Positions 4,963-29,154 of a stretch of DNA of 32,896 nt are shown in pieces. The notes beneath the pieces were generated by a model. That model was not told where the DNA came from. It saw only the letters and a program-made list of their open reading frames with translations, and did no database searches. The DNA comes from a virus, in the IMG/VR virus record IMGVR_UViG_3300021440_000083, positions 1-32,896 of that record, one strand, 5' to 3'. The stretch's first letter is position 1, and the number at the start of each line of letters is the position of its first letter. A program made the position numbers and the translations under genes.

Positions 4963-7121
4963 GCTGCTTCACCCGGTTTGTTTTCTTTTGAGCTAGCATT
5001 AATCAATGCAATATCTTTTTGTGCATTAACTGTAGTAAGCGTCTTAAACACATCAACATCCATAGCTTTATGACGAAGTTCCATATCAGCACTCTTATTA
5101 GCATCATCTGCCAGTATTTTCATTTGCTCATACTGCTGTTCAATAATAGCTAGTTTAGCTTCATATTGATGTTTAGCCAAGTCAAGCTTTTGCTTATTGG
5201 CCTCAGCTTCCGCTTTGTACCTAACGCTTTGTTGCATAGCTTCCGCTTTGCCGAGCTCAGCTTGCGCCAAAGAAGCCTCCATCTGCATTTGAGCCACTTG
5301 TGCCTGCTCAGCTTTAGCACTAGCTTCCGCTTGGGACTGCTGTTGCGTTTGTTTTTGCTGCTTTGCAACATCAGATTGCGGGTCTAATACATACTTATAA
5401 GCAGAATGAAGCCCAGAAAGCTTACAAAACTCGTTAATCGTATTGTAAATTCGAGTATCGTCTAGCAAGTAAGTAAATGGCGAGCTAGCAAGTGTAGCTT
5501 GTATACTTTGTAGTTGGCCAATTGCGGCAAGCTTTTCTTGCTTATTGCCAGCGCCTAAGCCTACTTTTACAGTAGTTAAGCTTCTAGGAATCCACTCAGA
5601 AGGATTAACTTGGACCCATCTGCCTTTAAATTTGTAGTCTTCAATAGCATCAATGTGCTTATGTGCTAAATCTCTAATTTTTATGTAAATAGGCTTAAGA
5701 CCAGTTTCCGCTAAAACACGGACAATGAGCCCAGAAAGTGCTTCTTTAGCTGTCATTAGCTGCGCGACGCCCTGTGAGCCTACTCTGTCACCAATGTTTT
5801 GAGGAGCGGAGGGGCCGTCGGCAGAAACACCAGTGCGCCCAGCTTTCATTTCTGCCAAATACCGCATTAACAGAATTGGAGAGTCTGTAAAAGCTTGTAC
5901 TGGTATGGGGTTAATTGCACCAGCTTGCTTTACACGCTTAATGCCACCAGGCGTAGAAGTAAGTAACTCGTCCATATCAACAATAAGAGCTTGCACAACT
6001 TCTTTTTCTTGGTTATTTTGAAGATAAAAGTTGTCTAAAGTGGAGCGCAATACCGCTGTTGATTGGTCTTGTATTTCCTTTACTCTATCATAAATAGACA
6101 GGCCTCTAAACTTATGAGACATCAAAATAGCAGTACAACCAACCCAAGGTGAGCCATCAGGAAGAGGCTCAACAGAAATAAGATGTGTTGGAGTGCCTTC
6201 GCCTACTGTAGTGACTTTGACATACTCAGCTATGCCATCATTATTGTAGTCCATATATAAGTAAGACTCTTGCAAATCGTATTCCTGCATAGTCATGTCA
6301 ATAGAGCTACGTGAGCTTAAAACAGACTCGTTCTGAGCTTCTTGCCTAAACGAATTGCGGTAGCTATTGGCAAAAGGCAAGTCTTTTATAGTTTTTTCAG
6401 GTATGCCTAAATTGATAAGGTCAGTGTAAGTTTTGACCATTTCATGGCAAACAAATCGAGCATTTGTTAAATTAATAGAATTGTGGTCACTGTTAACCTT
6501 TATGTTCTCTAAAGGCACAGATTCAACATTTATTTTACCATAGGTGCAAGTATTTTTAAACTGAACATCATAAAAAGTGCCAAAGTCGGTTACATCTTCT
6601 TTTAAAGAGAAAATTTCTATGTCTTTCTTTGTGTTTACCAGTAAATGTAGCTGTTCTTGCGTAAGACCAGAATAAGAAACAGTTTCAGCTTTTTCTTCTT
6701 TAGTATAATAGACTTTGCTAATACCGTTGTTTTGCAAAAGCGCATCTTTTGTCATTTGATGAAGAATAACAAAGCCATCGTTTTTTTTCATTAAAACGTC
6801 GTATACATACTCTGTTTCTAGCTCCGCTTGCTCTTCATCTTCAGGATTAACGGGGTCAAATGAAACGCAATCAGCAGAGCCTAAGAATGCTTCCATCACA
6901 GAAGGCATAATCCACTCTATGCAGTCTGCGACATCTGTGGAGGTAACTTGTGAGCGACCTTCGACTTCTGTTCCATCAGGCTTTCCAAGGTAATAGTTAA
7001 GCGGAGTCTCTATGTCAATAGCTGTTCCACTTGAAAAGTTATTTGGAGAAAATGCTAGAGTTTGTTCCAACTCATTGTTGATTACAGAAAGAACAAAGGC
7101 GTCGTCTATTTTTTGTTTCAT
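4959..7121 (-). CDS. Portal protein
   Basis: 720 residues, the length expected of a large podovirus portal. The N-terminal 80 residues hold PLNYYLGKPDGTEVEGRSQV and TDVADCIEWIMPSVM, hallmark segments of the P22/BPP-1-like portal group. The centre is the stem and wing region. From about residue 590 to the end there is a long Ala/Gln/Lys-rich coiled coil that would form the extended barrel inside the capsid. It forms the dodecameric vertex through which DNA is packaged and ejected. The ATG lies two bases after the stop of a 19-codon frame, which may couple its translation to the upstream gene. Confidence 0.9.
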   Translation of the reverse strand: MKQKIDDAFVLSVINNELEQTLAFSPNNFSSGTAIDIETPLNYYLGKPDGTEVEGRSQVTSTDVADCIEWIMPSVMEAFLGSADCVSFDPVNPEDEEQAELETEYVYDVLMKKNDGFVILHQMTKDALLQNNGISKVYYTKEEKAETVSYSGLTQEQLHLLVNTKKDIEIFSLKEDVTDFGTFYDVQFKNTCTYGKINVESVPLENIKVNSDHNSINLTNARFVCHEMVKTYTDLINLGIPEKTIKDLPFANSYRNSFRQEAQNESVLSSRSSIDMTMQEYDLQESYLYMDYNNDGIAEYVKVTTVGEGTPTHLISVEPLPDGSPWVGCTAILMSHKFRGLSIYDRVKEIQDQSTAVLRSTLDNFYLQNNQEKEVVQALIVDMDELLTSTPGGIKRVKQAGAINPIPVQAFTDSPILLMRYLAEMKAGRTGVSADGPSAPQNIGDRVGSQGVAQLMTAKEALSGLIVRVLAETGLKPIYIKIRDLAHKHIDAIEDYKFKGRWVQVNPSEWIPRSLTTVKVGLGAGNKQEKLAAIGQLQSIQATLASSPFTYLLDDTRIYNTINEFCKLSGLHSAYKYVLDPQSDVAKQQKQTQQQSQAEASAKAEQAQVAQMQMEASLAQAELGKAEAMQQSVRYKAEAEANKQKLDLAKHQYEAKLAIIEQQYEQMKILADDANKSADMELRHKAMDVDVFKTLTTVNAQKDIALINASSKENKPGEAA

Positions 7122-18825: not shown

Positions 18826-19008
18826 ATGAAATACTTAATACTATTATTATGCTTAACTGGCTGCTCCCATGAGTTTTGGTTCGGCGATGGAAGACCTGTT
18901 GCGTACAGCCCAGAAGCGGAAGGCCATTACCAAAGAATGTTTGACCTTACAACAGTCTATCAGATGCAACGAAATGACCAATTGCGCGATATGAACAGGA
19001 GAAGGTGA
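18826..19008 (+). CDS. Small predicted lipoprotein
   Basis: 60 residues. MKYLILLLCLTGC is a short signal peptide with lipobox LTGC, so Cys13 would be lipidated and the mature 48 residues anchored to a membrane facing the periplasm. The mature part is polar, with an Arg-rich end (RDMNRRR). The residue after Cys is Ser, compatible with outer-membrane sorting. It lies between the ssDNA-binding-like and polymerase genes, far from the lysis cassette, so a spanin role is less likely than a superinfection-type role as in T5 Llp. That role is inference. Confidence 0.6.
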   Translation: MKYLILLLCLTGCSHEFWFGDGRPVAYSPEAEGHYQRMFDLTTVYQMQRNDQLRDMNRRR

Positions 19009-27006: not shown

Positions 27007-27199
27007 TTATACACCTAAATAGGTGCATATCAAAGCCAACCCCGCCAGAAACAACCAGAAAGCGGAAGGTAAAGGTACGCCCGGTGGTTCTTTATCTGGT
27101 AGCTCGGGTTGGTTAAGCTGAATTGATATGCCGCCCAATTGAGACTCAGGCGGCAGTATAGGGAGGGTTAAGCCAGTGTTTACAGGCGGCTTTTTTTTT
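27007..27199 (-). other. Coding frame reached by -1 slip on an A9 tract; VPLP-type hydrophobic C terminus
   Basis: In the frame -1 to the 124-residue gene, an open frame of about 60 codons runs from the A9 tract (27199-27191) to TAA at 27007-27009. It has no ATG or GTG start. It reads Pro-rich (PILPPESQLGG) and ends GVPLPSAFWLFLAGLALICT. VPLP followed by a Trp-Leu-Phe helix resembles the VPLP form of PEP-CTERM sorting signals, but the usual basic tail is missing. Access could be by -1 frameshift or transcriptional slippage at A9, by a TTG start, or the break may be a mutation or read error. Confidence 0.5.
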
Positions 27200-27554
27200 C
27201 TGTCATGCCTAAAAGCAGGTTTTCAGTTGTTAAGTTAGACTTAACAACTGGCTTACATGGTTCGTTTTGAAAGCGAGCAATCTCTTTATCGAGCTGCTTA
27301 CCTTTAAAGTCATTGTCTTCGATCATTTTAACTAGCTTTTGCTGGTCACCTGGCAGCTTAGCCAGCGCGTCCTGAATCACTTTATTGGCATCGCTTAAGC
27401 GTTCGTTCTGCTCGCTGAGGCGCTTGTTTTGGTCCTCAATCGTTCTTAGCGCATCCTTGTTAATCTCACAAGGCGGACTATAGGCGGCAATCGTGCCACC
27501 AACCGATACGGCGGAAACAATACCAGCCACCATGCCAAATTCACTCAGCCTCAT
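27180..27554 (-). CDS. Lysis-region protein with N-terminal membrane helix and coiled coil (spanin-like)
   Basis: 124 residues from the ATG at 27554, chosen for its AGAAGG ribosome site; a longer start would lie inside the holin-like gene. FGMVAGIVSAVSVGGTIAAY (6-25) is a membrane helix; residues 35-95 are a periplasmic-type coiled coil (EDQNKRLSEQNERLSDANKV). That is the plan of an inner-membrane Rz spanin. No lipoprotein Rz1 was found in an overlapping frame. It ends two codons after an A9 tract; a -1 slip would replace the last 3 residues with about 60 more and a second membrane helix. It overlaps the gene before it by 14 bases. Confidence 0.55.
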   Translation of the reverse strand: MRLSEFGMVAGIVSAVSVGGTIAAYSPPCEINKDALRTIEDQNKRLSEQNERLSDANKVIQDALAKLPGDQQKLVKMIEDNDFKGKQLDKEIARFQNEPCKPVVKSNLTTENLLLGMTEKKSRL

Positions 27555-27756
27555 CAGATGCACCTTCTGCCGGGTCGTTGTTAATAATCGTCGTGTTAGT
27601 GTTAGCCCGTGACCAATCACCCGACAAAGCCGCTACAATGATTGAGATCATACTGGCAATAATTGCTATCGGCTTATCCGCATGAATGACATAAACTATC
27701 AAGGCAAAGGCAAATACCAGCGTACTAAAGCGGATAGCAAACTCTAATCGACTCAC
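27541..27756 (-). CDS. Holin-like membrane protein
   Basis: 71 residues, GTG start overlapping the preceding TGA (GTGA). Two hydrophobic helices, LVFAFALIVYVIHA (about 13-26) and IAIIASMISIIVAALSG (about 30-46), then a polar, acidic C terminus (DPAEGASDEAE). Two short helices and location in the lysis cassette fit a class II-type holin that permeabilises the inner membrane for the endolysin. Which of the small membrane genes here is the true holin is unproven. Confidence 0.55.
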   Translation of the reverse strand: MSRLEFAIRFSTLVFAFALIVYVIHADKPIAIIASMISIIVAALSGDWSRANTNTTIINNDPAEGASDEAE

Positions 27757-27875
27757 GGCATCGCCTCTAATACCTTAAGCCCAAGCCATACCCATAGCGC
27801 AACGGTGCCGACAAATACTGAAAATATGAGCAATATGATTAGCCACATTGGTATGTTATCTGGACTTTGCTTCAT
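27753..27875 (-). CDS. 40-residue single-pass membrane protein of the lysis cassette
   Basis: ATG overlaps the previous TGA (ATGA) and its TGA overlaps the next GTG. MWLIILLIFSVFVGTVALWVWLGL (10-33) is a strong membrane helix with short polar ends. It may be an antiholin, a holin partner or a small pinholin. No lipobox. Not part of any family I recognise. Confidence 0.5.
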   Translation of the reverse strand: MKQSPDNIPMWLIILLIFSVFVGTVALWVWLGLKVLEAMP

Positions 27876-28144
27876 TCACACTCATACTCTGCTGGTTCGA
27901 ATATAGCACGTACCCTCCTAACAGTCTCGTGCTCAGCATTGCGCTCAAACTCAACGATGCGATAACGTTCCTTCCAGTCGGCACACTCAGCGCTAATGCG
28001 CTCAATATAAGGGTCGGTTTCTTTCACTATTTTAGTGAGATTCACCACTTTCAGAGCGGCATCGTGAAGTTCCGCGCGCTGCTGCAAATATTTGGCGGAA
28101 ACCAGCACCGAATAGACAAATAAAGCAATAACTGCCGCTTCCAT
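27872..28144 (-). CDS. Membrane-anchored coiled-coil protein of the lysis cassette
   Basis: 90 residues, ATG overlapping the endolysin TGA (TGATG). MEAAVIALFVYSVLVSAKYL is an N-terminal signal anchor; the rest is helical and charged (QQRAELHDAALKVVNLTKIV). This is an alternative candidate for the Rz-type spanin, so the cassette has two such proteins (see 27180-27554). Its order right after the endolysin is the more usual spanin position. Confidence 0.5.
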   Translation of the reverse strand: MEAAVIALFVYSVLVSAKYLQQRAELHDAALKVVNLTKIVKETDPYIERISAECADWKERYRIVEFERNAEHETVRRVRAIFEPAEYECE

Positions 28145-28800
28145 CAGGCCAACCCCAAAGCCTTAAACACTTTCTTAGTCTGAACTTTACGATCATCCAG
28201 TCCGTTAATGCCACCATTAACGCGCTTGGTTACCGTTAATATGCAACTGTCACTTGTGTCCACACACTTTTTATCGACGGCATTTTCGTTAAACCAGTAG
28301 AAAGCCGCTTGAAAATAAACTTTGGGGTTATCCTTTAAGCTATCCAAGTCGGTGTCTGCTGGCAAGCCTATGCTATCCAAGAACTTTGTAATGTTGGCCT
28401 TTCCAGTGAGCTGAAGCCCAAATATACCCCGATAACGCCAACCATCGCAGCTAGCTTCATCGCCGTTACCCATGCGGTTAGCATAGACATGATTAGCGAT
28501 AAGTTCGGGTTTGCGCTCATGCGCTGCTATTAATGCCTGATTGGGCACTAATTCATCCAGCTCATTACGCACCGTGTAATATTTCTTGAAAATATTAAGA
28601 AGCCCAGCCGCACCGTAGTTCAAGTTTTCCCGAAAGTGGGTATAAAGACCGCTCTCATGCGCTACCTGCCCGATAACATGTGCAAATAACAATTTATCGG
28701 TGATTCCCAAATCAGCCATCATCGCCTTAGCTGTATTTGGACCCATGACTCCATCTGGCGTTAAGCTCAAATGCTGCTGATATTTCTGTAAATAGTTCAT
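28144..28800 (-). CDS. GH19-type (chitinase-like) endolysin
   Basis: 218 residues from the ATG at 28800 with TAGG 6 bases upstream; an ATG 13 codons earlier is less likely. The first 35 residues (LSLTPDGVMGPNTAKAM) are a short peptidoglycan-binding repeat. The catalytic part starts AHVIGQVAHESGLYTHFREN and supplies both acidic residues expected in GH19 endolysins (Glu of HESG and Glu of REN). YANRMGNGDEASCDGWRYRG and FGLQLTGKANI complete the family signature. No signal peptide, so release depends on the holin. It cleaves the glycan strands of peptidoglycan. Confidence 0.88.
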   Translation of the reverse strand: MNYLQKYQQHLSLTPDGVMGPNTAKAMMADLGITDKLLFAHVIGQVAHESGLYTHFRENLNYGAAGLLNIFKKYYTVRNELDELVPNQALIAAHERKPELIANHVYANRMGNGDEASCDGWRYRGIFGLQLTGKANITKFLDSIGLPADTDLDSLKDNPKVYFQAAFYWFNENAVDKKCVDTSDSCILTVTKRVNGGINGLDDRKVQTKKVFKALGLA

Positions 28801-28896: not shown

Positions 28897-29154
28897 TTAG
28901 TCAACTAATACCCAGTCTTCCGCAAGGACATCTGTTTGTGAAGCTAACCAAGGTACAACTGTATTTTGCACAGTTTTCATGGCTATATAGGCTTGATAAG
29001 GCACAGTTTCACCAAACTCCTTCTTAGCTATTTCAGTTAGTGCTGCGTAACTGTTAGCAGCAACATAATATAGGTACATACCTTTGCCATTCCAGCCTGC
29101 TCTAGCAACCTTATTTCCGCGCTTAAGCTCAATTATTGCTTGACCGAAATCCAT
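28897..29154 (-). CDS. Tad2-like (DUF2829) anti-Thoeris candidate
   Basis: 85 residues. MDFGQAIIELKRGNKVARAGWNGKGMYLYYV is the DUF2829 signature (F-x-x-A-(I/L)-x-x-L-K-x-G-x-x-V-x-R-x-GWNGKGM), and the C terminus closes with DVLAEDWVLVD. DUF2829 proteins include Tad2, which sequesters the cyclic ADP-ribose-type signal of the Thoeris defence and so blocks abortive infection. Length matches the family. It stands among late genes, between a coiled-coil gene and the endolysin, although an anti-defence protein might be expected early. Whether this one binds the signal is not known from sequence. Confidence 0.8.
   Translation of the reverse strand: MDFGQAIIELKRGNKVARAGWNGKGMYLYYVAANSYAALTEIAKKEFGETVPYQAYIAMKTVQNTVVPWLASQTDVLAEDWVLVD

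Follow-up and report, generated by a model that had tools for sequence, protein, structure and literature searches.

A conserved A-run and a coding -1 frame suggest two length forms of the last protein in a phage lysis cassette

The DNA analysed here, hereafter called the window, is the whole stretch of 32,896 nucleotides of the IMG/VR virus record IMGVR_UViG_3300021440_000083. A lysis cassette, marked by a chitinase-like endolysin, is found on its minus strand, with the genes in the order endolysin, coiled-coil protein with an N-terminal helix, 40-amino-acid membrane protein, holin-like protein and a gene with a run of nine A near its end, hereafter called the A-run gene, which is the last in the operon and lies ahead of convergent genes (Table 1). 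A Tad2-like protein (PF11195, E 5e-28), belonging to a family that includes anti-Thoeris proteins, is encoded directly upstream of the cassette (28897-29154, minus strand). Elsewhere in the window, the minus strand codes for a repeat-built protein (1525-2511; NGNASG..GFNVQITG), antisense to which a long frame is open on the plus strand (1862-2581).

Table 1 Features of the lysis cassette and of the A-run gene (positions in the window; L001, L002 and L003 are the relatives named in the text)
Feature	Position	Strand	Remarks
Endolysin, chitinase-like	28144..28800	-	PHROG 181, E 2.4e-42; marks the lysis cassette
Protein with N-terminal helix and coiled coil	27872..28144	-	second i-spanin-like protein of the cassette; no confident family match
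40-aa single-helix membrane protein	27753..27875	-	
Two-helix holin-like protein	27541..27756	-	end overlaps start of the A-run gene; no confident family match
0-frame ORF of the A-run gene, 124 aa	27180..27554	-	N-terminal hydrophobic helix, helical hairpin flanked by Cys29/Cys100, SRL-stop past the A-run
A9 slippery tract (T9 on + strand)	27191..27199	-	A9/A9/A8 in L001/L003/L002
Slip heptamer A_AAA_AAA in 0-frame phase	27192..27198	-	intact in 4/4 phages; next codon AGC also conserved
-1 frame extension, 61 aa + stop	27007..27192	-	KPPVNTGLTLP...GVPLPSAFWLFLAGLALICTYLGV; proline-rich linker, VPLP motif, C-terminal helix
10-bp RNA hairpin	27129..27155	-	conserved; ~35 nt downstream of the slip site; putative role

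The 0 frame of the A-run gene codes for 124 residues, hereafter called the N part, and, as the original prediction had stated, it stops two full codons past the nine A (GAA AAA AAA AGC CGC CTG TAA), giving the C-terminus GMTEKKSRL. The N part starts with a Gly/Ala/Ser-rich hydrophobic stretch and contains the conserved residues Cys29 and Cys100, between which helices at residues 33-65 and 69-97 are predicted in a low-confidence model (mean pLDDT 64). Read from the tract, the -1 frame (AAG CCG CCT GTA ... GTA TAA) is open for 61 codons, close to the 60 first proposed, and its full translation, hereafter called the tail, is KPPVNTGLTLPILPPESQLGGISIQLNQPELPDKEPPGVPLPSAFWLFLAGLALICTYLGV, with the stop at 27007. 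ATG and GTG are absent from the tail, also as predicted, and the only common start codon in the tail of the window is TTG at codon 19. The positions and the description first given for the locus were thus confirmed. One A9 run was found in the window, compared with approximately two expected by chance from the composition, and the run alone thus proves nothing. A -1 frame open for 61 codons was found at only 0.7% of positions in the other minus-strand genes of the window. The feature that exceeds chance at this locus is its conservation and not the A9 itself.

A scan of IMG/VR with the N part identified three relatives, 3300021440_000075 (L001), 3300021440_000087 (L002) and 3300022747_000081 (L003), and the comparison set consisted of the window and these three, four sequences of uncultured phages from two metagenomes, all of them close. 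IMG/VR queries with the tail, an alignment of the N part, the joined protein, the holin-like neighbour and a DNA pattern returned the same three relatives each time. The N part was 89-96% identical in L001-L003, the L003 protein having a seven-residue insertion in its second helix. The phase of the tract, the 0-frame stop (in all relatives three codons past the last AAA codon) and the 61-codon open -1 frame were kept in all four phages. Neither a missing second frame nor a run of 8 or 10 A fusing the two frames, either of which would have spoken against the original prediction, was found: in L002 a GAA codon before the tract is substituted by CTA, leaving A8, yet A_AAA_AAA is intact, and since the shorter run results from a substitution and not from an indel, the frames remain separate. 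An in-frame fusion was not present in any of the four contigs. In 3300022747_000081, two extra genes (5965-6669) separate the gene for the coiled-coil protein from that for the small membrane protein.

No relatives were found among 50,697 named phages, where the tail alone gave chance-level matches, and the N part had no relative in the genome contigs collection. In 21 further contigs, nearly all terminase-related, neither the N part nor the tail was found, and the larger of these contigs contained no comparable slip-site tails. Vibrio phage VA-RY-3 and Cronobacter phage Ss1 have small membrane-type genes, which were considered as candidates and rejected because they have no similar tail.

The tail evolves as a protein in the -1 frame only and is under purifying selection. 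The pooled pairwise pN/pS of the tail was 0.195 in the -1 frame, the corresponding values for the 0 and +1 frames being 0.93 and 2.0, and 24 of the 43 variable tail columns were third positions in the -1 reading. When the same substitutions were scattered randomly over the tail of the window in 20,000 trials, the mean number of residue differences was 38, whereas 15 were observed, and none of the simulations gave a number as low. In the final 100 columns of the tail, DNA identity was 81-96%, and it dropped to 30-43% past the stop, where L003, inspected by eye, has a different, DNA-methyltransferase-like gene. Selection specific to one frame, together with the collapse of identity at the stop, indicates that the tail is protein-coding and ends at the -1 stop. 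Within the cassette, the N part and the tail were among the most conserved proteins, whereas the endolysin fell to 60% identity.

These results bear on the possibility, raised with the original prediction, that the two frames reflect an error in the sequence or a broken gene, in this case through an indel in the A-run; phase variation of the tract is considered along with it. Homopolymers mutate readily and are prone to errors, and assemblies may hide minority indels. The phase is nevertheless the same in four contigs, one of them with a substituted A8 in an unchanged frame, and a tail that is coding and conserved is not explained by a sequence error or a dead gene. This account is thus very improbable.

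Alternatively, the tail could be a separate small membrane protein, translated by re-initiation past the 0-frame stop at codon 14, which is TTG in the three relatives and CTG in the window. Genes of the Rz1 type are often located at the end of Rz, or within that end, in a different frame (PMC6139136), which fits such an arrangement. However, besides the lack of ATG and GTG, neither candidate start, at codon 14 or 19, has an evident Shine-Dalgarno sequence, the TTG at codon 19 is not conserved in the relatives just as that at codon 14 is missing from the window, and this reading does not explain why codons 1-13 and the A-run are conserved. A separately started tail is accordingly considered unlikely. 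The codons directly after the slip site, KPPVNTGLTLP, are conserved although no start codon precedes them, and joining of the tail to the N part in the -1 frame is the simplest account of residues that have nothing to start them.

The preferred reading, to which we assign a probability of roughly 0.68 from the sequence comparisons, is that the A-run gene, at the end of the cassette, makes two length forms by programmed -1 recoding on the A-run. Some of the output would be the 124-residue form, which has a single helix at its N-terminus and a helical hairpin predicted to be periplasmic. Some ribosomes would instead step back one base at A_AAA_AAA, or would translate an mRNA in which the run is longer by one A, and go on in the conserved -1 frame, resulting in a form of approximately 182 amino acids, which would gain the proline-rich linker, the VPLP motif and another helix at its C-terminus. 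That a slip would add a hydrophobic VPLP-type tail to a protein of the lysis region had been predicted originally, and the conservation of the tail and the selection on it in the -1 frame agree with this. The product would act in the envelope step of lysis, either in a spanin-like manner or by regulating that step.

Known poly-A -1 frameshifting, as in dnaX and IS elements, takes place on A_AAA_AAR heptamers (PMC4066793, PMC3711429). The phage gene resembles these cases in its in-phase A_AAA_AAA, its early 0-frame stop and its coding -1 frame without a start, but differs from them in having no recognised stimulator at the usual spacing, in belonging to a lysis cassette and in adding a membrane helix. 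In E. coli reporters, a site with nine A gave approximately 40% frameshifting and a site with seven A 10% (PMC3711429); efficient shifting on runs as long as that in the phage is thus possible in a foreign context. Two hairpins were found, a small one adjoining the tract (~0 nt) and the 10-bp one of Table 1 (z of -2.1, -3.6, -0.6 and -3.0 in the four phages); neither is at the usual spacing of a -1 stimulator, the 10-bp hairpin being too far away for the classical type. AGG is present 9 nt upstream of the slip site in three of the four phages and lost in L002. Rfam gave no match. A 12-bp hairpin located upstream was rejected as a candidate terminator-like stimulator of slippage, since it is broken in L001.

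The same two products could also be obtained through slippage of RNA polymerase on A9, a variant compatible with the preferred reading and quite possible, at somewhat less than even odds. Runs of nine A have the length known for transcriptional slippage (PMC1088944), and the missing classical ribosomal stimulator, as well as the single occurrence of A9 in the window, is in keeping with such a mechanism. Against it, L002 has only A8, the codons flanking its tract being altered while the ribosomal heptamer is retained. Sequence alone does not tell ribosome from RNA polymerase; the relative with A8 and an intact heptamer slightly favours the ribosome.

The likeness of the tail to PEP-CTERM signals, which are bacterial surface-sorting tags, was part of the original prediction and was found to hold for the core motif and not for the tail as a whole. 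The VPLPSAFWLF core, followed by a hydrophobic helix, is identical in 10 of 10 residues to a genuine Methylomonas PEP-CTERM tag, and the only confirmed match of the tail in the genome contigs was a genuine PEP-CTERM-type protein of Methylomonas sp. SURF-1, which has this core together with the basic end. With E values up to 1 accepted, a profile of the tail matched 23 places in the Methylomonas sp. SURF-1 genome, the motif being the aligned part in nearly all of them, and those inspected include further VPLP tags. The tail scored below the family cut-offs (17.3 compared with 20.7 bits for Pfam and 14.1 compared with 25.35 for TIGR03370) and lacks the basic C-terminal cluster, ending in CTYLGV, CAYLGV or CTYLGS. 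With the basic end missing and the scores under the cut-offs, the tail is PEP-CTERM-like by its core motif, as judged from the sequence, and no member of the family. It thus resembles PEP-CTERM and VPLPA-CTERM tags in core and helix, and differs from them also in being phage-borne and reached by proposed recoding. A search of 151 Methylomonas-order genomes for a CRISPR link to the host found none, the DNA matches being short and having no CRISPR repeats around them.

The position of the gene and the architecture of its product suggest a role in lysis. Matches of the predicted protein to spanin families were at chance level (PHROG 739, E 0.056), its architecture being i-spanin-like; the cassette contains two proteins with a predicted N-terminal helix and coiled coil, this one and that encoded at 27872-28144, either of which would be the candidate i-spanin, if there is one. 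Scanning the window and the relatives for lipoboxes gave a single lipoprotein candidate, at 18826 in another operon, and none near the A-run gene. This sole lipobox protein (18826-19008, plus strand, 60 aa) belongs to the early operon and is conserved in two relatives. As there is no lipoprotein partner nearby, the product of the A-run gene is no proven spanin. Among the features of unimolecular spanins, the C-terminal membrane helix is present and the N-terminal lipobox absent. The product may be spanin-like or spanin-controlling, and is not assigned to either spanin class. The long form, which has a helix at each end and no lipobox, could bridge the envelope, as first suggested, or could equally form a loop in the inner membrane.

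Compared with Rz/Rz1 (PMC6139136), the phage gene has a similar N-terminal helix and helical region with Cys, an out-of-frame, proline-rich second product and a position in the lysis cassette. Unlike Rz1, this second product has no lipobox, terminates with a membrane helix and, in the proposal, is joined rather than separately started. With the unimolecular spanin gp11 of T1 the long form shares a C-terminal membrane helix in one polypeptide, but it has no N-terminal lipoprotein signal, and its soluble part is helical and contains Cys, in contrast to T1 gp11, which is mainly beta, and to u-spanins, which have no periplasmic Cys (PMC6139136).

If the more far-reaching interpretation applied, a minor, -1-recoded form of a spanin-like protein would bear a host-type, PEP-CTERM-like tag in place of the lipoprotein anchor, the frequency of slipping would set the share of protein tethered at its far end, and the product would serve as a non-lipoprotein bridge or gate of the envelope in lysis; this we regard as speculative and rather doubtful. 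The G/GT tail-assembly chaperone of lambda is a case of a dsDNA phage protein made in two length forms by -1 recoding, as is proposed here, although the protein and cassette are different and unrelated. Among dsDNA phages, most known cases of recoding concern tail-assembly and capsid genes. In the open-access literature, as judged by titles, abstracts and term searches, no description was found of a spanin gene or lysis-cassette gene with an extension of this kind. Conserved recoding in a lysis cassette, adding or omitting a membrane tail, would, if true, be a new use of recoding. The locus is small and testable, and bears on how phages without a recognisable lipoprotein spanin handle the outer membrane. 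The VPLP tag in addition raises the question of whether an exosortase sorting signal has been borrowed by phages.
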